Of a stretch of 26,621 nucleotides of DNA, positions 5,522 through 26,621 are shown piece by piece. The DNA is from Pelagophyceae sp. CCMP2097 (taxonomy: Eukaryota > Sar > Pelagophyceae). Made by a program: the position numbers and the translations under genes. The stretch spans positions 122,423 through 149,043 of the forward strand of contig MU657244.1 of assembly GCA_026770575.1 (NCBI GenBank), written 5' to 3'. The notes beneath the pieces were generated by a model. It was given only the letters and a program-made list of their open reading frames with translations. It had not been told where the DNA came from and ran no database searches. The first letter of the stretch is position 1, and each line of letters opens with the position of its first letter.

Positions 5522-8500
5522 TTAGCGCTGGTGCCTGTCGCGCATGAGCATGTGCTGGGGTTTGCCGAAGTGCGGGGGCGGGGGCGGCAGCCTATTGTGC
5601 GACGTCGCGCGATGGTGGCAACGCAGAGGGGCGACGTACCGACGCTTCCTCTCCGGGTCGTCCGCCGCGCCGTTTGCGCCGCCGTCGTCGTCGAGGCCGC
5701 GGCGCGCGCCGGGCGGCCGCTTGCGCGGCCGCCTGCGGGATGTTGCGTGCCGCGGCCGGCTACGCAAGACAGAGTCCCGTCTCGAACAAACAGGGTCCGA
5801 CTCCAAGAAACGCGCCCTTCCAAGCCAGAGCGCCTCGGTCGTCGAAAGGGGCGCTCACGGGGGCGCCGTTTGCGGCGGCGGCGGGCGGTGGTCGAGGCAG
5901 TAAAATGGCAGGAACGTTTTCTCCTCGTCCGCGTCAGAGTCCGAATCCTACAACGCCAGTCACGGCCTTCCTCGAGGCCAAAGGACGCTGCGATCCGACG
6001 GAGACGTCGCGGTCGCCGCTGAGTGGGGCGTCGAGGGGCGTTGCGAGCGTGAGGTTCCATTTTTCTCTTGCCGCCGCGCAGCGAGGATGAAACGATTTCC
6101 AACATTTTTCTAACGAACAACCGAGCGTGGCCCCAACACGACCGCATGCACCGCACTTGAGCTGCCGGCCGCGGCGGACGGCGGAGTCGACGTTTTCAAA
6201 CGAAGATGCGCTGCGTTTGACTTCCGGCGAGAAAAGAGCGCACCCCTCGTGGACCCAGCACGCACGTCCACTCGTCGAAACATTCATCAAATCCCCAGCC
6301 ACAAAACCAGGGCACGACGCTTGCTCGGCCGAGCGGAGGCCGCACAAGGCGCATCGCGTTGAAGGAGTCTCTTCGGTTGAAAAGTCGACGGAGCCCTTGG
6401 CGTCGCCGTCGAAGAGGACCGACGCGAGCAACGCCGCCTCGCGCGTGCCGGACTGCAGCGCCCCGGCCGCAGTCGCCTAAGACGCCTCCCGTCCGGCGAG
6501 GCGCGCGCGGGGGGACGTCGACGACGCCTTGGCGGACCCGGCCGAGGCACGAGGTGGACGCACGAGGTGCGTCCTGGACGTGGCTTCGCCCGCGAATCGG
6601 AGGCGCCCTCGGCAGAGCGGCGCCGCTAGAGCGTCGACGTCTTTCGGAGTCGAATTCGGAGCCAGGAAGGAATACGACCCTCGTGAGAACTCGTCGCGGC
6701 GCCACGACGAGACTTGCGCGTCGAGGACCAGGCCAGAGATCCTACAAACGCGTTGCCGGACGCACAAGTGCCACTCGCGCCTCTTGACGCGTCTTGCGAT
6801 GGCGGTCTTTCCGAGACGCTGCCGTGCGACGTCTCGGCATCTCCAGGGAAACCCAGCAATCCAGCGAGCGCCTCTGCGCATCTTCGCCGCAGCGCCCCCG
6901 ACGCTGCACGGACCGCGTCGCCTTGGCCGCCCTCGGCATCCTCCAGGTCTTCAGCGGCGGCCGCGGGGACTAAAGCCACGAGGACAGCGGCCCCTGTTGC
7001 GGTTTCCAGATCCGACCACATAAAAAACTCCGACGCGCGTTGCTGCCCCACCCTCCCCAGATGCGGCCGTCGGTCGTCTGGCCAGTACTTTTGGTCCTTC
7101 CAAAAGGTCCTGGAAAAGAGGATTGCGACCTTGTTCAGTAAGCCGAACCCCAGCCGAGAGATGGCGAGCTCTTTAAATGCCGGCAGCGGCGGCGAGAACC
7201 GCAAAGCCCCAGCCTTGAGGCAGCCCAGCGGCAGCGTGCACACCACCGCCTCGCACGCGAAACGAGATCCGCCAACGCCTAAGGCCTCCGTCGGGGAAAC
7301 ATCATCAGAGGAAACCGCGCCGCACCGGTGACGACGAACGAGCCGTCGACCTGCTCCTCGACCAACTCGACGACCAAGCCCGTGCGGACGTCGAGCGCGG
7401 CCTAGATTCGAGGCGTCTCGGGCGTCAGGCGCGCATGTGTGCCGACTGACGGCCTTGTGTTCAGCGAGCGCGGAGAAGCCCTCGCGCAAGACGACGTGCG
7501 CGCCGCCGTGCGCGTGAACATCGTCCTGGTCCCAATGGCGTAAGGAGAGCGCGTTTAACGGGGCTGCGTTGGCGTATTCAAGATTCGCAACGTGCCAAGA
7601 TATCAAAGCCTCCACCGCGTCCTCCGCGCCGCCGTCCGCGGGCCTTGCCGCCACGGCTGCCGCCGCGTCCCTTGTAAAAGCGTCCGACATGGCGTCCGAC
7701 GGAGCCGCGTCCGACGGAGCCGCGTCCGACGGAGCCGCGGCCGTCGGAGCCGCGTCGGCCGCCGCCGCCGCCTCGCGGCCCGCGCGGAGGGCTTGGCGTT
7801 CGCGGTCGAACCATTCAAAAAGGTTAAACTCCGCACCATGGCGGCCGCACGCCCGCGCCGCGGGCAAGGCCGCGGGCGTAGCAGACGCAAACGCAGACGC
7901 CGGAAATGCCGAAAAAAACTCTGCCTCTGCCTGGTCGAGGGCGGCTCGGTCGCCTTTTTCGCGCGCCGTCCCGAGGGCCGCGTTGAAATGGGCCTCTGCG
8001 ACAGTATCCGCCTTGGTGCCCGAGAGGATGCGTCCGGTTTTGAAACACCGGAGAGAGACGTCGTCGCCCGTGTCGACGAGGTGCAGGCCAGCCTGCTGCG
8101 CCGCCGCGGTTAGAGGGTTGCGCCGCACGCCGTGTATCCAAGAGGCGCCTACATCGTAGACTCAAACGAGGCTCGCCCCGACCGGCGGCGCTTTACGACT
8201 GGCGTGGCGGGCAGAAGAGGACTGACCCATGTCGACGCGCGGCGGGTCCGCATCGTCGCCGAGTTTGACCGTGCAGCACCGGCCGCCGACGCGCAACCGC
8301 GCCTCGAGCAATACGACGCGCGCGCCGGACGCCTGCAGCGCCTCCGCGCAGGCCAGGCCTAGGGATAGCGCATGCATAAGGGACCGGCGGCCGACGGCAT
8401 CGCGTCCGGGACGGCCGACAGAGGGCACCCGTACCCGCGAGGCCGGCGCCGATGACTACGACTCGAGGCGCCGCGCTCAGCTTGACGCGGTGCTCCGGCG

Positions 8501-10225: not shown

Positions 10226-10250
10226 GGGATATAAATTACAACCCTCACGC
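10226..10250 (+). promoter_or_regulatory. TATAAAT/ACCCTCA motif, copy 3
   Basis: GGGATATAAATTACAACCCTC lies about 130 bp before the ATG of the TPR gene and about 90 bp before the start of the divergent minus-strand gene. It continues as ACGCCTCA, a word also found just before the glycosyltransferase ATG at 13557. Confidence 0.45.
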
Positions 10251-10375
10251 CTCACCCAGGGCCGTACAATGTAGCCAGCTCCGAACATCCGCGAAACAAT
10301 TTTGTGTATTTTTTTTTGCGAAACGGCCGCCAGCTGCTGTTCTCGGGCATCAGCCCTCGAGGCCCGGCTGCGGTC

Positions 10376-12280
10376 ATGGGCGGCGCGGTCAGTGGGCCGA
10401 AACGCGGCAAGCGCGTGGCGGCGAGCCCCGAGGCGGAGGCCTTTCTTCGCACGGTCGGAGGCTTTTTCGCCTCGCGCGATGAGGTCACGAAGGCGACGCC
10501 CGCCTTTGTGCAAACGAACATCGCCACGTTCTTCGACGACGTCGGCGGCGGTGTCATCCTCAAACAGGACGTCGTCGGCGGCATCGAGACGCAGTTGGAC
10601 GCGTTGTACGCACGAGCGTCCGCGGCAAAGGAAGTATTGGACGGCTTCGGCCGCCGCCTAGTAGCAGACGCCGGCCTCGACCCGAACCAGGAGATGGCCA
10701 CCGAAGCCACCGACGGCGAAGAGGTCCTCCGCGCCTACTCGGCCGGGCCTTTGAAGTCGAGGGCGCGCGCGGCGGAAAAGGCCAAGGACGAGTACGACGG
10801 CGACGCGGCGCGGCTTCTCGACGTCGTGCGCGGCTCCATCGTCTGCGGCGACGAGGCCTCCTTGGTCGCCGTCCTCAAAAGACTCCTCGGTCACACCAAC
10901 GAGGCCGCAAAGGTCTGCGTCGTCTGCAGCAAGAACCGCTTCCGGAAGCCGCTCTTCAACGGGTACCGCGACGTCCTCGTCAACCTGCGCCTCCGGCTGC
11001 CGGACGGCACCTTCATGGTCGTCGAGCTCCAGGTCCACCTCGTCCAGATTTTGGAGTGCAAGGCGAAGACGAAAGAATTTTACGTGCGCTTCCGGACGTA
11101 CTTTTCCGGCAACGTCGAAATCGTCGCCGAGCGCAATAAGGTCCTCGAGCCCGTCGCCGGCAAGGACGCGACGGCGGGCTTCCTCCAAGCCGTCGAGCGC
11201 GCCGTCAAGGCGCGAGACGCGTCCGAGCTCCAGGCTTTGGACGTCCTCCTGGAGCAGCTCGCCGCTTTAGACCTCCTCGCCCTCGTCCGAGAGTGCAAGC
11301 GCGACATGTCGCTGGCCGCCAACGGCGAGGACTCGGTGGAGAACGCCGACGCGCTGAACAGTTTGGCGGAGCTGCGGAGGACGCAGGGCAAGTTTGCTGC
11401 AGCCGAGCCGTTGTACCGACGCGCCCTCGACATCCGCGAGAAGAATCTCGGGGCGTACCACCCGGACGTCGCGACGTCGCTGGACAACGTCGCGTTCTTG
11501 CTGCAGGCCCAGGGTAAGTTCGCCCCCGCGGAGCCGCTTTGCTTGCGCGCGCTCGCGATCCGCGAAAAGGAGCTCGGCCCCGACCATCCGAGCGTCGCGG
11601 TGACGCTGAACAACCTCGCCGAGCTGCTTCGCGCGCAGGGCAAGCTCGACGCCGCCGAGCCGCTCTACCGCCGCGCTCTCGCCATCTCCGAGGAGCAGCT
11701 GCGGCCGGACCACCCGCTTGTCGGCACGTCGCTGAACAACGTCGCCGTGCTGCTGCAGGCGCAGGGCAGGCTCGACGCCGCCGAGCCGCTGTACCGCCGC
11801 GCCGTCGCGATCAAGGAGAAGCAGCACGGGACGGACCACCCGAGCGTCGCGACGTCGCTGGGCAACCTCGCGGGGCTGCTCAAGGCCAAGGGCGAGCTCG
11901 ACGCCGCCGGGATCCTCTACCGCCGCGGCCTCGCCATCTTCGAGCAGCAGCTCGGGCCGGACCACCCGAGCGTCGCTATGTCGCTCCGCAACCTCGCCGG
12001 GCTGCTGGAGAAGCAGGGCGACCTTTCCGGCGCGGAGCCGCTCTACCGGCGCGCCCTATCGATCCGCGAGGAGCAGCTCGGGCCGGACCACCCGAGCGTG
12101 GCGACGTCGTTGAACAACGTCGCGCTCCTCCTGTGGCGCCTCGGCCGCTTGGAAGCGGCGCTGCCTTTGCAGGCCCGCGCGACGGCGATTTGCCAGCGGC
12201 GGGGCGACACGAAGAACGAAGCCGAGTACCGCTTCGAGCTCAAAAAAATGCGGCGCGGCGCGCCGTTCCCATACGCGTAA
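10376..12280 (+). CDS. RelA/SpoT-like domain protein with seven TPRs
   Basis: Single-exon gene of 634 aa; the start is the first ATG in the frame, in good context (GTCATGG). Residues 2-7 (GGAVSG) fit an N-myristoylation site. Residues about 145-250 resemble a RelA/SpoT nucleotidyltransferase: LLDVVRGSIV (acidic residue D149), KNRFRKPLFNGYRDVLVNLR (like the family's NGYrSlH segment) and VELQVHL (like EvQIRT, E218). Seven 42-residue TPRs of the kinesin-light-chain type follow from about 322 to 615 (core LGPDHPSVATSLNNVA). The family makes the alarmone (p)ppGpp. Whether this copy does is uncertain, since the conserved Ser-Leu-His is replaced by Arg-Asp-Val. TPRs suggest a scaffold that recruits a partner. 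Confidence 0.75.
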   Translation: MGGAVSGPKRGKRVAASPEAEAFLRTVGGFFASRDEVTKATPAFVQTNIATFFDDVGGGVILKQDVVGGIETQLDALYARASAAKEVLDGFGRRLVADAGLDPNQEMATEATDGEEVLRAYSAGPLKSRARAAEKAKDEYDGDAARLLDVVRGSIVCGDEASLVAVLKRLLGHTNEAAKVCVVCSKNRFRKPLFNGYRDVLVNLRLRLPDGTFMVVELQVHLVQILECKAKTKEFYVRFRTYFSGNVEIVAERNKVLEPVAGKDATAGFLQAVERAVKARDASELQALDVLLEQLAALDLLALVRECKRDMSLAANGEDSVENADALNSLAELRRTQGKFAAAEPLYRRALDIREKNLGAYHPDVATSLDNVAFLLQAQGKFAPAEPLCLRALAIREKELGPDHPSVAVTLNNLAELLRAQGKLDAAEPLYRRALAISEEQLRPDHPLVGTSLNNVAVLLQAQGRLDAAEPLYRRAVAIKEKQHGTDHPSVATSLGNLAGLLKAKGELDAAGILYRRGLAIFEQQLGPDHPSVAMSLRNLAGLLEKQGDLSGAEPLYRRALSIREEQLGPDHPSVATSLNNVALLLWRLGRLEAALPLQARATAICQRRGDTKNEAEYRFELKKMRRGAPFPYA

Positions 12281-17720: not shown

Positions 17721-18112
17721 CCGGCGCGCCCGCAGAGGCCGCGCCGCGCCCGCAGAGGCCACCCGGTGCCGCACGACGCCACGAGACCACACGACGCCAC
17801 GAGACCACGACGTAAGCCCGCCGGCGGTCTGCGACTGCGACCCCCGAGTGGCGAGCACGAGCAAGGAGAGCTTTTGGCCCCGGCAGTCGACCCAGACTCT
17901 CGGAGTAACCCGGCTGTCGACCAGAGTAAACCCGACTTGAGATACGTCTCGCGCGTCGACGTGGGTCCGTGCGTGTTCGTGTCGACTTGGCCGCGTGCCC
18001 TCCACAGACCGACGGCCGGCGCGGTCTGATAGAACAATTTTAAAATGTCGCCACGCATTCGTTCGGCGACCCCGCGGCGAGGCTTGGCCGCAGCCCATGC
18101 GCGGCGGCGTGC
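17721..18112. other. Intergenic region with short tandem repeats
   Basis: Between CSN1 and the RAP gene. It holds two copies of GCGCCCGCAGAGGCC (about 17727-17760) and two copies of a 16-bp CACGACGCCACGAGAC unit (about 17770-17805). AT-rich TTTTAAAATGTCG at 18037-18050 may belong to the promoter or 5' leader of the next gene. Confidence 0.4.
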
Positions 18113-21100
18113 ATGACGCCGTGGCCCCGCGCATATGGCCCGCGCGGCGTCCGCCGCTTCGCGCGGCCCTGTGACAAGGTGGTGCCGCCACGAGGCGGCG
18201 CTGCACTCGCCGAGCTCTACGTCTCTCACCTGCCGCCCGCGACAACGGCGCAGCACGTGCGCGCGGCGTTTGCGGCCGTGTGCGCCGTGCGCGACGTCCG
18301 GCTGCCCGTCGACGGTACGGGGTTGCCGCGAGGGTACGCTTTCGTGACCGTTGATGCGACCGACGCCGACCGCGTCGCAACCGCGCTGCACCGCGCCGTA
18401 GTCGGCGGCGGGCGCATCGCCGTGCAAATCAACGATACGCCCGGGCCTACACGCGAAAGGCGGCCGCCGTCGCAAGCCGGTGCGCGGACTAGAGCCATGC
18501 GACTCAACGGGCTCCTCCTCTCCGCCTCGACGCCAACGGCCGTCCTCGACGTCTTCAACGACGCGGCAGCGGACTTTAATGCCGTCAACTGCGCCACGGC
18601 GCTGCACCGAATCGGCGCGCTCACGCGGGCGTCGCCGGAGGCGGCAGAGGCGGCGGCGCTGCAGCGCCTCGTCGAGCACGCCGCCGAGAGCATGGGCACC
18701 GGCACGTGGCGGCCACGCGAGCTCGCCACCGCCTGCTGGGGCGCCGCTCGAACCGGCGCCGACGCGTCGCTTCTCTTCGGCGCCGTCGCCCAAGCCGCGC
18801 CCGCGAAGATGGCCTCGTTCAAGGCGCAAGAGCTCGCCAACACCGCCTGGGCCTTTGCTTCAAAGGGCGCCGCGCAGAAAGCGCTGCTCCGTGCCATCGC
18901 CGCAGAAGCTGTGAAGAAGATGGAGACGTTTAAACCGCAGGAGCTCGCCAACACCGTCTGGGCCTTTGCGAAGATGGGCGTTGAAGCGCCGGCGCTCTTC
19001 GAGGCCGTTTCAAAGGAAGCGGTGGCGAAGATGGCGCACTTCAAAGCGCAGAACATTGCCAACACGCTCTGGGCCTTTGCAAAGGCTGGTTTTGCAGCGC
19101 CTTTATTGTTCGAAGCGGCGGCGGCGGCGGCGCGGCGGGACGTCGCGCACTTCAAGCCGCAGGAGCTGGCAAACACCGCCTGGGCTTGCGCCACCCTCGC
19201 CGAGGCGCCCCGGTCGCTGTTTGACGCTGTCGCTTTGGAAGCGTCGAAGAAGATGGCGCAGTTCACGCCGCAAAACCTCGCAAACACCGTCTGGGCTTAT
19301 GCAAAGGCGGGCGTTCCGGCGCCGCAGCTCTTCCACCGCGTCGCCTTCGAGGCCTCGGCAAAGGTCGAAGCCTTTCACCCGCAGGAGCTCGCCAACACCG
19401 TCTGGGCCTTTGCGGCCGCGGGCGTCGAGGCGCCCGCCCTCTTCCGAGCAGCCGCCGGCCACGCCCCGAAGAAGATCGAGCAGTTCAACGCGCAGGACCT
19501 TTCAAACACCGCCTGGGCCTATGCGACGGCGGGCGCCTCTGACGCGGCGCTCTTCGAGGCCGTTGCCGCGCAAGCACCAAAGAAGATTGCGACGTTCAAG
19601 CCGCAGGAACTCTCGAACACGGCGTGGGCTTTTGCGACGGCGGGCTTTGAAGCGCCGACTTTATTTGAAGCAGTCGGCGCCGAAGCCGTCAAGAAGATGG
19701 TCACGTTCAAGCCGCAGGAGCTCGCCAACACCGTCTGGGCTTTTGCAAAGGCGGGCCGCTCCGACTCCGCTTTATTTGAAGCAATCGCCGCCGCAGCGCA
19801 AAAACACCTGGCGTTTTTTGGCCCGCAGGCGCTCGCCAACATCGTCTGGGCCTATGCGACGGCGGGCGCCTCTGACGCGGCGCTCTTCCGAGCAGTTGCC
19901 GACGAGGCTCGTTTGAAGCTGGCGAATTTCAAGGCGCAGGCGCTCGCCAACGTCGCCTGGGCCTACGCGACGGCGGGCGAGGTGGACCTCGCGCTCTTCG
20001 AGGCCCTTTCATTGGAGGCATCGAAGAATATCGAAACGTTCAACGCGCAAAACCTCGCAAACACCGTCTGGGCCTTTGCGACGGCGGGTGTCAAGGCGCC
20101 ATTGTTGTTCGAAGCGGTCGCCTTACACGTCCCGGAGAAGATGGCACAGTTCAACGCGCAGTTCAACGCGCAGGCGCTCTCAAACACCGCGTGGGCTTTT
20201 GCAAAGGCGGGCGTTTCGGCGCCGTTGTTATTCCAAGCCATAGCGGCAGAGGCCCCAAAGCAGATTTCAAAGTTCAACGCGCACGAGCTCGCAAACACCG
20301 CGTGGGCTTTTGCGACGGCGGGCGTTGAGGCGCCGGCGCTGTTCGAGACCGTCGGCGCCGAAGCCGTGAAGAAGATGGCGACGCTGACGCCGCGCGACCT
20401 CGCGAGCACGTTGTGGGCGTTTGCAAAGGAGCGCGAAGGGAACCTCGAGTTGTTCGACGCCGCTGCGGCCCAGGCACAAAGGGTCATCGCACAGTTCAAC
20501 GCCCAAGACCTCGCCAACACGGCGTGGGCTTGTGCGACGGCGGGCATCGACGCACCTTTGTTATTTCAAGCTGTTGCAGCGGAAGCCTTTGAGAAGATGG
20601 CGACGTTCAACGCGCAAGATTTAGCAAACACCGCGTGGGCTTTTACGATTGCGGGCGTCGAGGCGCCTTCGCTGTTTGAAGCCGTCGCGGCGGGCGTGCG
20701 GCGTCGGCTGCGGGAATTTTCGAAGGTGGATTTGTCGCAGCTGCACCAGGTCTTGCTCCACCTCCGCCTCGACGCGCCGCGCCACCCGTTGACCCTCTTC
20801 CTGAGCGAGCACGAGGCCACGCTCCGCGCGGCGCACCTCTCCAGCGGGCCGACGCCATCAAGATCGCAGCGCGACGCGTCCGAGGCGCTTTTTCGAGTCG
20901 GGTGGCACCACGAGTTTGAGCACGTCACCGCCGAGGGCGTCAGCCTCGACATGGCGCAGCCTTCGACAAAGGTCGCGGTGGAGTTCGACGGCCCGACGCA
21001 CTACCTCGCGGGCGCGCCGGTCCTCGACGGCCCGTCCAAGGCCAAAGAGCGGCTGCTGCGCCGCTTAGGTTGGACGCTCGTACGAATACCGCACTTCGAG

Positions 21101-21193
21101 TGGGACGCACTCTCGACCGATCGACGAGAAGACTACCTCCGCCGCAAGCTTAGAGAGGCCTCGGCCGGGCCCCGCAGAGGGCCAAAAGGGTAA
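18113..21193 (+). CDS. RRM, OPR-like repeat and RAP domain protein
   Basis: Single-exon gene of 1026 aa, a predicted organelle RNA-binding protein for maturation, splicing or translation of plastid or mitochondrial transcripts. The Arg-rich first 30 residues could be a targeting peptide. An RRM lies at about 34-108, with RNP2 LYVSHL (35-40) and RNP1 RGYAFVTV (73-80). From about 199 to 869 there are 18 tandem repeats of 37 residues, core FKPQELANTVWAFAKAGVEA and a LFEAVAAEAVKKM tail. They resemble the octotricopeptide (OPR) motif LANxLWALAxLG. Repeat 14 carries four extra residues from a 12-bp duplication. The C-terminal RAP domain (about 952-1015) shows VAVEFDGPTHYL and LLRRLGWTLVRIPHFEWD. 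RRM plus OPR plus RAP in one chain is unusual. The RNA target is unknown. Confidence 0.85.
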   Translation: MTPWPRAYGPRGVRRFARPCDKVVPPRGGAALAELYVSHLPPATTAQHVRAAFAAVCAVRDVRLPVDGTGLPRGYAFVTVDATDADRVATALHRAVVGGGRIAVQINDTPGPTRERRPPSQAGARTRAMRLNGLLLSASTPTAVLDVFNDAAADFNAVNCATALHRIGALTRASPEAAEAAALQRLVEHAAESMGTGTWRPRELATACWGAARTGADASLLFGAVAQAAPAKMASFKAQELANTAWAFASKGAAQKALLRAIAAEAVKKMETFKPQELANTVWAFAKMGVEAPALFEAVSKEAVAKMAHFKAQNIANTLWAFAKAGFAAPLLFEAAAAAARRDVAHFKPQELANTAWACATLAEAPRSLFDAVALEASKKMAQFTPQNLANTVWAYAKAGVPAPQLFHRVAFEASAKVEAFHPQELANTVWAFAAAGVEAPALFRAAAGHAPKKIEQFNAQDLSNTAWAYATAGASDAALFEAVAAQAPKKIATFKPQELSNTAWAFATAGFEAPTLFEAVGAEAVKKMVTFKPQELANTVWAFAKAGRSDSALFEAIAAAAQKHLAFFGPQALANIVWAYATAGASDAALFRAVADEARLKLANFKAQALANVAWAYATAGEVDLALFEALSLEASKNIETFNAQNLANTVWAFATAGVKAPLLFEAVALHVPEKMAQFNAQFNAQALSNTAWAFAKAGVSAPLLFQAIAAEAPKQISKFNAHELANTAWAFATAGVEAPALFETVGAEAVKKMATLTPRDLASTLWAFAKEREGNLELFDAAAAQAQRVIAQFNAQDLANTAWACATAGIDAPLLFQAVAAEAFEKMATFNAQDLANTAWAFTIAGVEAPSLFEAVAAGVRRRLREFSKVDLSQLHQVLLHLRLDAPRHPLTLFLSEHEATLRAAHLSSGPTPSRSQRDASEALFRVGWHHEFEHVTAEGVSLDMAQPSTKVAVEFDGPTHYLAGAPVLDGPSKAKERLLRRLGWTLVRIPHFEWDALSTDRREDYLRRKLREASAGPRRGPKG
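18709..20716 (+). repeat. Array of 111-bp coding repeats
   Basis: Eighteen tandem 111-bp units encode the 37-residue OPR-like motif. Some units are nearly identical over tens of bases (for example those around 18938, 19388 and 19718), a sign of recent unit duplication or gene conversion, while others have diverged. One 12-bp block (TTCAACGCGCAG) is duplicated at 20150-20173. Confidence 0.85.
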
Positions 21194-21783: not shown

Positions 21784-24700
21784 ATGTTCTCGCCAGCGGC
21801 GGCGCCGCTCGCATGCGCGGAGGTGGCGCAGGTCTCGCGCATAAACGCGGCGTGCCTGCACGTCGGCGTCGGCGCGCTCTTGACTTACTCGGTTACGGTC
21901 GCCGCGACTTTTTGGTGGTTCGCCGAGTCGAGGGAGTAAGTCGTCTGTGGTGTCGTGCGCCACAAAGGACCGGTGGTGTCGTGCGCCACAAAGGACCGGT
22001 GCACCTGACGCGGAAGAATACCAACTATCACCTGGCGACAGGTATCTCCTGCCGAGGGAGCGCGGCGCCGCCGGCCTCGCCGCCTCGTGCGTCGAGCGCG
22101 AAAAGCCGCGGGCGACGCCACGGGAAACTATACGCCACGCTAGGGCCCTGACGGCGTCGCTCGTGCTGCGCGGCATCACCTGGCTGACGAGCGAGATAGT
22201 GAATCGGTCATCCCCGGACGACGAGTCGAAGCGCGCGCCGGCGACGCCGGGCGTCGTGCGGCGCCGTGTCGGCGATGCCGGCCGCCTCCCGGGGCGTCGC
22301 GGCGACGGCGGGGGATGCCCGAGTCTTGCGCGGCATCCGGAGGCCACCCCCCGTCGCACTGTCTCTGCCGCTCTAGGTCTGGCTGGCGCACTGCGTGAAC
22401 CTGGTGGCGGCGTGCACGTCGTGGCTCTTCTTCCTCGTCCCCGTGCCCGTGGTATGGGACCCGATCACGCACTGCCGCGTGCACATGCTGCGGTGGTGCG
22501 AGTGGGTTGTGCTGAGCTTCACGATGACGTTTATGACCGAGGTGGCGGACCGGAGCGACCCCTGGTCCGCCGTGCGCCTCGGCGCGACGCAAAGCGTCTC
22601 GACGGCCTGCGGCTTCCTGCTGCCCCTCGCGCGCGGGCCAAACGAGTGGGCAGCAATCATGACGCTGAGCATGGTCCTCTACGTCGCGCTCTTCCCGCGC
22701 CTCTGCAAGCGGCGCGCGTCGGTGCGCGGGGCGCGCGCGCGCCGCGACGCCGCGCGCGGCACGCTCCACTACCCCGACGCCGCGGATGAGGCGTCGCGCG
22801 CGCGGGCCGGCGTCCCGTCGAGATGCCGAGGGTCCTTTTGGCGCGCCGCGGCGGCGGAGGCGTCGGCGTCTAGGTGGAGATGTCATACATGCTGCTGACT
22901 TGTTGCTGCACGATCTGGACGACGTTCGTGCTCGTCTACGGCCTCGCCGGCTTTGCCAAGTGGAGCGGGCTGGACACGACACCCGCTCCGGCGTGGCCCT
23001 TTGTCTGCGACGTCTTCGCGGATTTGCTGGCCAAGTTTGTCTACGCGGCGGTCATCGTCGACGCGCACGCCGCGCTCTTCGACGAGGGCGCCATGGGCGC
23101 GCGGAGAATGCGCGAGCTCCACGGCCTCGTTTCCGCGGTGTGGGCCTCGTCGTCGGACACGCTGGCCATCTCAGTCCGGCACCGCCTCGCAGACGGCCGC
23201 GTGCGCGTCGAGACGGCAGTGTCGCACGACGACGCGCAGGGCCCGCCTGCCTGCGCGGCGCAGCACGCGGCGTGGTCGGGCGGCGGCGCCGCCGTGGAAG
23301 CGACGTCCGTCGTCTACGAGGAGCCCGCGACGTCCGTCGTCTACGAGGAGGACGGGGAGCCGCGCCCCGCGGCCGCGGCCGAGGCGTGCTTCGCGGGGCT
23401 GATCCGCCGCGCCTGGCTCGTCGAAGCGGCGCCGCTGGCGGAGCGCAACTTCCGACTGACGCACGAGCTGGCCCGCGCCGACGGGACCACGTTCCAGACC
23501 GAGGCGAGCGTGACCCGGCTCGGGCCGGACCGGATGGTCGTCGTCGTGCGCGACATCACGGAGCGCGACGCGCGCCACGAGGCGGAGAAGGTACTGGTGA
23601 AGCAGGCGGCGGCGCACGAGCGCGACGCCGCAGCCAACCGGTTCACCAGGTGGGGGCCCCTTCACTGTTCGTGGCACGGCGTGGCTGTGCGCTAATCGAA
23701 GACGCGTAGGCACGAGGTGAAGAACGGCCTCCTCGCCGCCATCGGCCTCGCCGACGCGCTCCTCGAGCTGCGCGCCCCGACGGCCGGCGGCTACGCGCGG
23801 CTGCCCGACGCGCGCACCGCCGGCGGCGACTCGGCGGCCTCCGTCGTCGCCGACCTGCAGACGGCCCTGACGGACACTTTGAACACGGTGCTCTCAGAGA
23901 CGATGGCGCGCGAGCTCGTCTACGACACGTACGTGGCGGCGCCCGAGACCGTCGACATCGCCGACGTCTGCCGCGGCCACGGCGGTTACCACAACGCAGT
24001 GAAAAACTTGAAGAACGGGGGTCGCTTCCGCCTCGAGGTCTGGCCCGCCAACCTGCCCTGCCTCGTCCTGGACCCGCAGCTGCTGCACTGCATCCACCGC
24101 AACGCCGTCTCCAACGCGTGCAAGTACGGCGCCGCCGACGGCGAGGTGACGACGCGGCTGCGGCTCGTGGACCCCGCCGACGGCACCGCCGTCTCGGCGG
24201 CGGCGGTGGCCACGCGCAGCAGCGGCACGTTCACGCTCACGCTGGAGGTGGTCAACGAGCCCGGCGCGGACCACGGCCGCCTCGTCGCGCTCGACGGCGC
24301 CGCCGCCGAGGCGCGCGTCTTCGCGCAGGGCGTGCGGCTCCACGCCGAGCTCCACTGCCGCGGCGCGGCGGCGGCGGCGGCATTATCGAGCGGCGACGGC
24401 GGCTGGATTATGCGCAAGTGCGCTCGGGCGCTCGGCGGCGACTGCGGCATTTCGTTCACGGCCGAGGGCTCATTCTTCACGGCGTCGTTCCCCGCGACGG
24501 TGGCCGTGCAGCCGGTGACCCTGCCGCGCTGCCCCAGCGACGCTGGCGGCTTCGCGGCGCTCGGGGACGCGCCGCCGTTCGCTCTACCGGCAGGGACGTG
24601 GGGCATCGGCATCGACGACTCTGGGATGCAGCGCAAGCTCCTGGTCAAGTTGCTCGTCTTTGCGGGCGTCGCCGAGGACCGCGTATTCGTCACGGGCGAG

Positions 24701-25363
24701 ACGGCCGACGAGATCGACAGCTTCGCCGCCTTCGTCGTGGAGCACGTGCGACAACACGCGCAAGACTACCACCTCGTCGTCGTCGACGAGAACCTCGACG
24801 TCAAGCGCACCGGCCCCGGCAAGACCGTCCTCGGCAGCGAGATCATCCTCGAGCTCCGCGCCACCCTCGAGGCAGAGGGCCTCAACGGCCGGCTCCTCAC
24901 CGTCGTGCGCAGCGCCAACGACTCGCCCGAGGACGTGGCCGTCAATCGTAGCCGCGCCCACGGCTTTCTGCCAAAGGCGCCTGTGCGGCGCGACAAGGTG
25001 CTCGAGGTGCTCGCGCCCATCTGGGCCGGCCGCTTTCCGGAGGCGCCCCGCGCCGACGGCGGCGCCGCGGCGGACGCGAAGCTCCACGCGTCGGTGCGCC
25101 AGGTCTGCGCGGCGGCGCCGACGCGCGAATGCGCCGCAGCGCCCGAGGAGCCGCAGCACCACGGGCGGGCCCCGCCGGCGGACGCGGCGGAAGAATCGGG
25201 CGCCGCAGAGGCGCGGGACCCCGCCGGGAGCCCCGAGTCCGAGTCGAACCAGGAGGCGGTGTGCCGCGCCCTCGGCGCGCTGAATATCGCGAGCTCGTCG
25301 CTGGTGCCGGCCTTCGCGGACGCGGCGCTACATCGCGCAGCGCCGGCCGGCGAGCTCTCCTGA
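21784..25363 (+). CDS. Histidine-kinase rhodopsin (rhodopsin-PAS-HK-receiver)
   Basis: Predicted light sensor: a microbial rhodopsin fused to a two-component kinase. Exons 21784-21935, 22144-22198, 22377-22721, 22874-23649 and 23710-25363 join in phase into 993 aa. Seven helices lie at about 13-45, 70-95, 104-124, 133-152, 159-176, 186-214 and 224-250. Helix C has RWCEW (R108, counterion E111), helix F has W199, and helix G has DLLAK with D234 and retinal Schiff-base K238. A PAS-like linker (about 266-425) ends in VVVVRDITERD. The phospho-His box is RHEVKN (H444), the Asn box HRNAVSNACKYG (N578), and the ATP-binding G-boxes are degenerate (NEPGADHGRL; GGWIMRKCARALGGD). The receiver has D745/D746, phospho-Asp D802 (VVVDENLD), S844 and K865. 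An unstructured tail follows. Residues used by proton pumps in helix C are absent, so signalling is more likely than pumping. Confidence 0.88.
21948..21999. repeat. 26-bp tandem duplication in intron 1
   Basis: Two copies of TGGTGTCGTGCGCCACAAAG plus GACCGG, back to back, inside the first intron of the rhodopsin kinase gene. Its TGGTGTCGTGCGCCACA part is itself close to an inverted repeat. Confidence 0.85.
23300..23350. repeat. 27-bp in-frame coding duplication
   Basis: The block encoding ATSVVYEEP occurs twice in tandem (units from 23300 and 23327) in the PAS-like linker of the rhodopsin kinase. Confidence 0.8.
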
Positions 25364-25579: not shown

Positions 25580-26599
25580 TCAGAGAGCGAGGGCGTTGGT
25601 CCAGTACTCCGCGACGGGCCGCGCCGCCGCGGCGTCGACCTGGTCCGTCTTGACGAGCCATGCGTTGAGGGCTTCAAAGTACTCGAGAGCGAGCGAGTTG
25701 TCGTTGACGAACGCCGGCAGCGAGGCTTCGAACGTGGCTCGGTCGGCCCGGGCCTCGCGGGCGCGCTTAATCCAGGTCCGGATGTCGAGGCGTCCGGCCA
25801 GCGTCCGCTTCGGAGCGGCGTGCTCCCGCCAGATGGCTCTCGCGCGCTTCGGGTCCTGCTTGATGAGCCCCGTGGCGCGCCGCATCGCGAGGACCAGTTT
25901 CCGCAGCGGGTCGGCGAGCGCCTCGAGGCGCTGGGGGGTCGTGAAGAGGACCAATTGACAGAAGCAGGGCACGCCGAAGTCCTTGAGCGAGAAGAAGTCG
26001 ACGTCGAGCCCGCGCCCGCGCGCCTCGACGACTTCAAAATTGTAAAAGGCCAGCGTGGCCACGTCGGCGGCGCCGCTGGCCAGAGCGTCCGTGTGGTAGA
26101 AGCCGCCGGCGTGATTGCCAAAGGGCTCGGCGCAGGGGCCGCCGCCGTCGGCCTCGATCATGGTCTGCACGATGGCGGGCCCGCCGGGCCCCGGCGCGCC
26201 GGGGTAGCTAATCGTCGCGCCGCACATGTCGCGCGGCCGCGTGATGTTCCGGCCGCGGACGTACATGACGCCGCCGTCGGTGTGCAGGAACCGCGAGAAG
26301 CCGATTACGGCCTTGCCGCGCGCCGCGTCGAGGGCCAGGTGCAGCGGCTCGGTGACGGCCACGTCGAGGCGGCCGGCGAGGATCTCGTCGTCGGCCTCCC
26401 AGTGGTCGCGCGGCTCGACGAGCTCCACGGCGAGGCCCGCCTCGGCGAAGTAGCCCTCGCGCAGCGCCACGACCAGAGGCAAGTGGTCCGGGTTCAGGAA
26501 CCATTCCAGCCCGACGCGCAGGGCCACCGGCTCCGCCGCTGGCTCCGCGGCCACCAACGCCGCGAGGCACGGCAGCAGCAACGCGAGCCGGAGGCGCAT
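25580..26599 (-). CDS. THI5/NMT1-like substrate-binding protein, secreted
   Basis: Single-exon gene of 339 aa of the SsuA/THI5 fold, the type-2 periplasmic-binding family that includes ThiY/RibY-like binding proteins and fungal Thi5, which makes the thiamine pyrimidine. The N-terminus (MRLRLALLLPCLAALVAAEP) is a clear signal peptide, so the product enters the secretory route or a plastid of secondary origin. Core motifs are LEWFLNPDHLPLVVA (His39 at the position of the ligand-site His region), LVEPRDHWEADDEILAG, GRLDVAVTEPLHLAL, HTDGGVMYVRG, and GVPCFCQLVLF at 210-219. PCFC recalls the CCCFC iron motif of Thi5 but keeps only two of the four Cys. No ABC transporter partner lies in the window. 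It could bind a thiamine or riboflavin-type ligand, or be a diverged pyrimidine synthase. Confidence 0.75.
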   Translation of the reverse strand: MRLRLALLLPCLAALVAAEPAAEPVALRVGLEWFLNPDHLPLVVALREGYFAEAGLAVELVEPRDHWEADDEILAGRLDVAVTEPLHLALDAARGKAVIGFSRFLHTDGGVMYVRGRNITRPRDMCGATISYPGAPGPGGPAIVQTMIEADGGGPCAEPFGNHAGGFYHTDALASGAADVATLAFYNFEVVEARGRGLDVDFFSLKDFGVPCFCQLVLFTTPQRLEALADPLRKLVLAMRRATGLIKQDPKRARAIWREHAAPKRTLAGRLDIRTWIKRAREARADRATFEASLPAFVNDNSLALEYFEALNAWLVKTDQVDAAAARPVAEYWTNALAL

Positions 26600-26621
26600 A
26601 CCGCGAGGGCGGGGGCACTCA

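Follow-up and report, generated by a model that had tools for sequence, protein, structure and literature searches.

A putative rhodopsin hybrid histidine kinase with a strongly diverged opsin in a pelagophyte, and its relatives in pelagophytes and diatoms

To our knowledge, blue-green light sensing in diatoms is only partly understood, and a gene of a marine, non-green alga raises the question of whether a retinal-type membrane sensor is coupled there to two-component signalling within one protein. The gene lies in a 26,621-nucleotide stretch (the window) of Pelagophyceae sp. CCMP2097 (assembly GCA_026770575.1, contig MU657244.1, positions 122,423 to 149,043), and the initial annotation of the window had read it as a histidine kinase fused to a microbial rhodopsin. 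We consider it likely that its product, P0001, belongs to an extensive rhodopsin hybrid histidine kinase family of pelagophytes and diatoms. Sequence comparison and modelling support a layout that runs from an extra membrane helix (TM0) and a rhodopsin domain of helices A to G, through a PAS-like domain, to a DHp-CA kinase and a receiver, with no cyclase.

The gene comprises six exons encoding 1053 amino acids, and their join is identical, letter for letter, to the deposited protein P0001; intron 4 has a GC-AG donor. The five-exon, 993-residue join proposed initially is in frame with GT-AG introns, but its exon ends are partly wrong, and it was dropped for the six-exon model, which reproduces P0001 exactly. 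Its 60 missing residues fall into three stretches of 15, 19 and 26. The first is the exon YLLPRERGAAGLAAS, where helix A starts; the second, NRSSPDDESKRAPATPGVV, is the A-B loop; and the third, RGARARRDAARGTLHYPDAADEASRV, is part of the E-F loop. All three are present in similar form in the paralogue P0002, and the mmetsp (transcript)-labelled protein P0006 carries the third and part of the second. The motifs named in that annotation (RWCEW, the helix F Trp, D-x3-K, HEVKN, the Asn box and the receiver) are all present. The features are as follows, with helix borders, fold patterns and pLDDT taken from the AF2 model.

21784..25363, + strand: whole gene; exons 21784-21935, 22042-22086, 22144-22255, 22377-22799, 22874-23649 and 23710-25363
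21805..21918, + strand: predicted TM0, residues 8-45 (block pLDDT 85-98 from residue 11)
22052..22207, + strand: predicted helix A, residues 55-87, split by the intron 22087-22143
22250..22436, + strand: predicted helix B, residues 102-123, split by the intron 22256-22376
22485..22544, + strand: predicted helix C, residues 140-159, with a B-C beta hairpin ahead (strands 126-130 and 137-139)
22491..22505, + strand: RWCEW, residues 142-146
22916..22918, + strand: W259, helix F Trp
22994..23077, + strand: predicted helix G, residues 285-312
23021..23035, + strand: D294-x3-K298, putative counterion and Schiff-base Lys
23159..23566, + strand: PAS-like domain, about residues 340-475, with RDITER at its end
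23711..23713, + strand: H504, phospho-accepting His of RHEVKN (DHp helices, residues 473-573)
23945..24511, + strand: ATP-binding (CA) domain, residues 582-770, with N-box N638, G1 position N685 and G731/G733
24599..25036, + strand: receiver, residues 800-945, with D805/D806, D862, S904 and K925
25058..25360, + strand: C-terminal tail, residues 953-1053 (pLDDT below 50 in 953-991 and 993-1053)

A first protein search returned 37 proteins, P0001 among them, and one with the relative P0008 returned 268, counting the query, of which 120 were listed; such numbers speak against a chance reading of the gene. Our family set comprises 141 proteins, from which we made the alignments A1 (30 of the first 37), A2 (83 of the 141) and A3 (68 of the 141); a profile search with A1 found six proteins only, all already among the 37. 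Members with a legible organism name come from Pelagophyceae sp. CCMP2097 or from diatoms (among them Thalassiosira, Skeletonema, Cyclostephanos, Corethron and Cylindrotheca); most carry no such name, and no member name among those listed mentions rhodopsin. Relatives encoded on other contigs, and proteins labelled mmetsp, repeat the opsin-to-kinase order. By tblastn, with queries from the kinase part only, no relative was found encoded on virus contigs.

For the membrane part, a profile of 81 of the 83 A2 rows (two short rows were dropped) was compared with eight canonical rhodopsins. They aligned over 182 columns with a score of 35.7, and the Schiff-base lysine fell in register, as did the RxxEW/RxxDW motif; the best of 450 shuffled profiles scored 26.6, and reversed profiles 12.5 and 16.8. 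When PDB sequences were ranked by the A2 and A3 profiles, the membrane domain of the rhodopsin phosphodiesterase Rh-PDE came first (E 2.7e-4 and 1.4e-5), followed by bestrhodopsin. The predicted structure of P0001 contains the seven-helix bundle of the bacteriorhodopsin fold, and with TM0 and a cytosolic enzyme domain it has the eight-helix, type Ib arrangement of enzyme rhodopsins: the match to eight-helix Rh-PDE (7cj3) starts at residue 19 and lies about 3 Z above those to seven-helix rhodopsins, at 13-14 % identity. Family profile, conservation and predicted structure thus uphold the full microbial rhodopsin domain first read here, to which the corrected gene model adds TM0, and they support our view of the membrane part as a strongly diverged microbial rhodopsin.

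For the counts at single sites, such as those of the putative retinal site, the other 58 proteins were added to A2, each denominator being the sequences that cover the site. RWCEW aligns with RYAEW of 7cj3 and with RYIDW of a canonical rhodopsin; its Arg is kept in 131/132 and W146 in 131/132. E145 corresponds in position to Rh-PDE E164 and bacteriorhodopsin D85, and is Glu in 124/132, otherwise Gly (6), Ala (1) or Lys (1). W259, whose position suggests a role in the retinal pocket, is Trp in 133/135, and the D294 site is Asp or Glu in 133/135. K298, which aligns with the rhodopsin lysine, is Lys in 135/135, a further 6 sequences having no letter at this site; it and P127 are the only invariant positions among the 293 membrane-domain columns that have 100 letters or more. 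Without a Schiff base it would be difficult to account for a lysine that a membrane helix keeps in every sequence, and P0001 probably binds retinal. In Rh-PDE, as a passage of PMC7644710 describes, the acidic pair and lysine are E164, D292 and K296. Carotenoid-oxygenase (PF03055) genes are found in the same genome, so retinal is possible, not certain; a search for a Blh-type oxygenase gave no match in the genome and none in the controls either, and is uninformative. Eight relatives (P0066, P0069, P0072, P0073, P0091, P0104, P0119 and P0120) have Gly, Ala or Lys in place of the counterion-site Glu and keep the Schiff-base lysine; they are candidates for shifted colour.

The signalling part follows in the same chain. 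The PAS-like domain that had been placed between opsin and kinase is borne out by the strand-helix pattern of the model and by Foldseek, in which nine of the top eleven rows are LOV (PAS-type) kinase or blue-light photoreceptor entries, but not by Pfam, which gives no PAS match in P0001 itself; PAS_4 and PAS_9 each match 2 of the 30 A1 members, with best E of 0.046 and 0.099. In the model a long helix links this domain to the DHp helices. The phospho-His and Asn boxes hold up across the family (H504 in 141/141, N638 in 122/126), as do G731 (77/79) and G733 (79/79) within A2. The CA domain has Foldseek matches to HK853 and GacS; HATPase_c, the one Pfam match of P0001, is sub-threshold (E 0.08), and it matches 21 of the 30 A1 members at E up to 1, the best at 4.8e-8. 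A complete receiver, as initially read, agrees with the alpha/beta pattern of the model and with the conservation of D862 (92/97), S904 (91/93) and K925 (92/93), but Pfam Response_reg finds no match in P0001. Pfam finds no cyclase in P0001 either, the chain after the receiver being a low-confidence tail, and P0001 differs in this from the 2c-Cyclops; the lack of a cyclase and the non-green host (a stramenopile of the class Pelagophyceae) were both read correctly at the outset. Opsin, DHp phospho-His, ATPase and receiver, the elements of a histidine-kinase rhodopsin (HKR), are therefore found in one chain by fold and motif, with an atypical G1 position and with Pfam matches that are sub-threshold or absent.

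Many relatives appear to continue beyond the receiver into an HPt-like domain. The C-terminal HPt-like motif is covered by 63 of the 68 A3 proteins, and all but one of them (62/63) have its His. Judged by motif, HxxKG stands near the end of 65 of 77 receiver-complete proteins, the 12 without it including P0001 (where we looked for it in the tail), P0002 and P0003; P0009 and P0129 have HxxRG in its place. In P0110, helices are predicted at residues 961-1061, with a block pLDDT of 80-94 over 971-1060. Pfam HPt has no match in P0110 or P0008, and the structure match tables, which the membrane domain fills and which are hence uninformative here, hold no HPt entry.

We propose, by analogy with the 2c-Cyclops, that light could control phosphotransfer from H504 to D862. 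Retinal would form a Schiff base on K298, with D294 (and E145) as counterion, and would isomerise in light; the change would travel from helix G via the PAS-like domain and the long helix to the DHp dimer, altering phosphorylation of H504, from which the phosphoryl group would pass to D862 of the receiver, then to an HPt and an output protein. The HPt would lie in the same chain in most receiver-complete relatives, and P0001 would need a separate one. What our data support directly is the homology of P0001 and its predicted fold, together with the conserved lysine, the order of the domains and the transcript-labelled relatives holding both halves; we infer retinal binding, light control and kinase activity of P0001. 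More tentatively, and short of even confidence, we suggest that diatoms and pelagophytes possess a large rhodopsin class of their own in which many members have a full light-driven His-Asp-His relay (opsin-PAS-kinase-receiver-HPt) in one polypeptide. Natural replacement of the counterion-site Glu by Gly, Ala or Lys would give different colours, and the kinase would have a non-standard ATP lid.

Several observations weigh against a retinal-based sensor kinase. The initial annotation had named the absence of a rhodopsin hit in a profile search among its grounds for refutation, and read to the letter this check goes against P0001: Pfam Bac_rhodopsin (PF01036) gives no match in it and matches only one of the 30 A1 members (E 0.069). 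A score over the cut-off of this profile is a rule of detection, though, and not part of what defines a microbial rhodopsin. Genome-wide, it finds two other genes and not that of P0001, and a phmmer search of the membrane part against PDB found no rhodopsin; Hyccin matches of this part were discarded (E 0.1 and worse). The profiles built from the family do reveal the rhodopsin, and we take it to be visible only with these because the opsin has diverged beyond detection by Pfam. Even so, the hhalign probability for the family profile against the canonical rhodopsins is 47 %, not high; against the single protein L002 (described below) the match is close to nil, spanning 30 columns of helix G only at probability 1 on the same scale; and the 50 Foldseek rows listed for the P0001 model consist of kinases and phytochromes throughout, so that it took a second look with VIA-align to obtain the rhodopsin matches. 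At sites located by offset from bacteriorhodopsin numbering, T89 is mostly Leu/Cys, T90 Ala/Ser, P91 mostly Phe/Thr and P186 mostly Val, so the pocket chemistry is unusual; with D96 mostly Leu or Met as well, pumping is unlikely and the spectrum is not guessable. RPE65-family genes may also yield apocarotenoids other than retinal. The G1 position, Asp in typical kinases, is Asn in 121/122, and ATP use is therefore not assured.

These points could mean either that a receptor of rhodopsin fold no longer binds retinal and responds, through an ordinary hybrid kinase, to some other ligand or to the membrane state, or that the kinase itself is dead and light governs a phosphatase or scaffold, with phosphate supplied from elsewhere. 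The loss of retinal, which would fit the missing Pfam match, the replaced T89, P91 and P186 sites and the occurrence in the genome of the same kinase type behind apparently non-opsin sensors, we judge quite improbable: the lysine is kept without exception while the D85 site varies. A dead kinase is somewhat easier to entertain, though still unlikely; the G1 Asn and the sub-threshold HATPase_c of P0001 are consistent with it, but H504, N638, G731 and G733 are conserved as given above, a relative reaches 4.8e-8 for HATPase_c, and the HPt-like His is nearly invariant. That the membrane and kinase exons are two genes joined in error is scarcely credible and largely refuted. P0001 rests on a predicted gene in which one intron is GC-AG, but the order recurs, as noted above, among relatives from other contigs and mmetsp-labelled proteins; one of the latter, P0006, unites helix C with the H box, even though its sequence leaves the family pattern after the H box.

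A light-sensing hybrid kinase finds its nearest studied counterparts, by architecture, in the green-algal HKRs or 2c-Cyclops (Cop5/HKR1, Cop6 and Ot-HKR; passages of PMC6284317 and PMC7693036), which share with P0001 an N-terminal opsin, a histidine kinase and a receiver. Cr2c-Cyclop1 resembles P0001 in its presumed eight helices with cytosolic ends, and uses His-to-Asp transfer, which light most likely inhibits (PMC6284317, in part). In contrast, P0001 has a PAS-like domain between opsin and kinase, for which the table in PMC7693036 has no row, and its family has many members with an HPt-like domain, a stramenopile host and an opsin too diverged for Pfam; site 89 is Thr, Ser, Gly or Ala in the HisK rhodopsins of that table and mostly Leu/Cys here. 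The lack of a cyclase, initially presented as new, is already in print: the same table includes HisK-RR rhodopsins, absent from its cyclase row. The HKR layout itself is known, and what sets this family apart is the opsin divergence, the PAS-like insertion, the HPt-like part and the host range. Rh-PDE of Salpingoeca rosetta (7cj3, 7d7q; PMC7644710, in part) shares eight helices including TM0, and its E164/W165 align with E145/W146; from the motif and the end of the structural alignment, D292/K296 would correspond to D294/K298, and W264 to W259. It differs in its phosphodiesterase output and choanoflagellate host, and bestrhodopsin (7pl9) in that its rhodopsin domains are fused to bestrophin, not to a kinase. 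Among the matches listed in the open-licence PMC literature, which leaves most subscription papers outside its scope, there was no diatom or pelagophyte rhodopsin-histidine kinase. Passages elsewhere describe three type-I rhodopsins of Hyphochytrium as the first of a stramenopile (PMC5795050) and predicted HKRs in Guillardia theta (PMC7714340), and the word "pelagophyte" was not met in 12 of 30 places of a 2025 algal photoreceptor review (PMC12558739).

In the P0001 family, pelagophytes and diatoms may have a kind of light sensor that has been overlooked. If so, a family of retinal sensor kinases has been missed because Pfam is blind to its opsin, and it offers a testable photoreceptor linking light to two-component signalling; were the one-polypeptide relay also true, a main light-sensing route of these algae would so far have gone unseen. 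Light-switched phosphorelay tools could also be drawn from the family, given the HPt-like domain that many members contain and the variation at their counterion site.

Elsewhere in the 66 Mb source genome (G000), membrane-domain matches to P0001-P0003 among the scored candidates are limited to the P0001 gene and C36:81.3-84.6 kb. P0002 and P0003 are deposited under Pelagophyceae sp. CCMP2097, and this genome holds no near-identical copy of them (best segments 75 % and 78 %). L002 (on G000:C13; frame at L002:1033-3318) is a 762-residue single frame with a membrane rhodopsin, then HEYTN and a receiver. Like P0001 it joins rhodopsin and receiver in one chain; unlike P0001 its rhodopsin is recognised by Pfam (Bac_rhodopsin 37.5 bits, over the cut-off), with Response_reg sub-threshold and no PAS or HATPase_c match. 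It seems to be a distinct rhodopsin sensor, closer to the canonical type, whose kinase is degenerate. L001 (G000:C96:47031-47642), with RYIDW, DVTAK and a Bac_rhodopsin score of 147 bits, is a rhodopsin of the canonical kind and may pump protons. Read by eye, L015, L016, L018, L020 and L023 encode similar unusual hybrid kinases (HE[LVF]KN, RNxxG[PV]xH, GDGFPM) with a receiver, behind sensors that are apparently extracellular and non-opsin.

Within the window, Rfam gave nothing above gathering score. By eye, intron 1 holds a 26-base unit in two tandem copies (21947-21998), and the PAS region a TSVVYEE peptide repeat (about 23303-23350). The upstream neighbour (18044-21190) is an RRM, FAST_1 and RAP-domain frame, perhaps an organelle RNA factor, and the downstream, convergent one (25583-26620, - strand) an NMT1/THI5-like substrate-binding protein frame (156 bits). 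Further off lie a flavin amine oxidase frame (6629-8161, - strand) and a long TPR (nephrocystin-3-like) frame (10235-12277, + strand).
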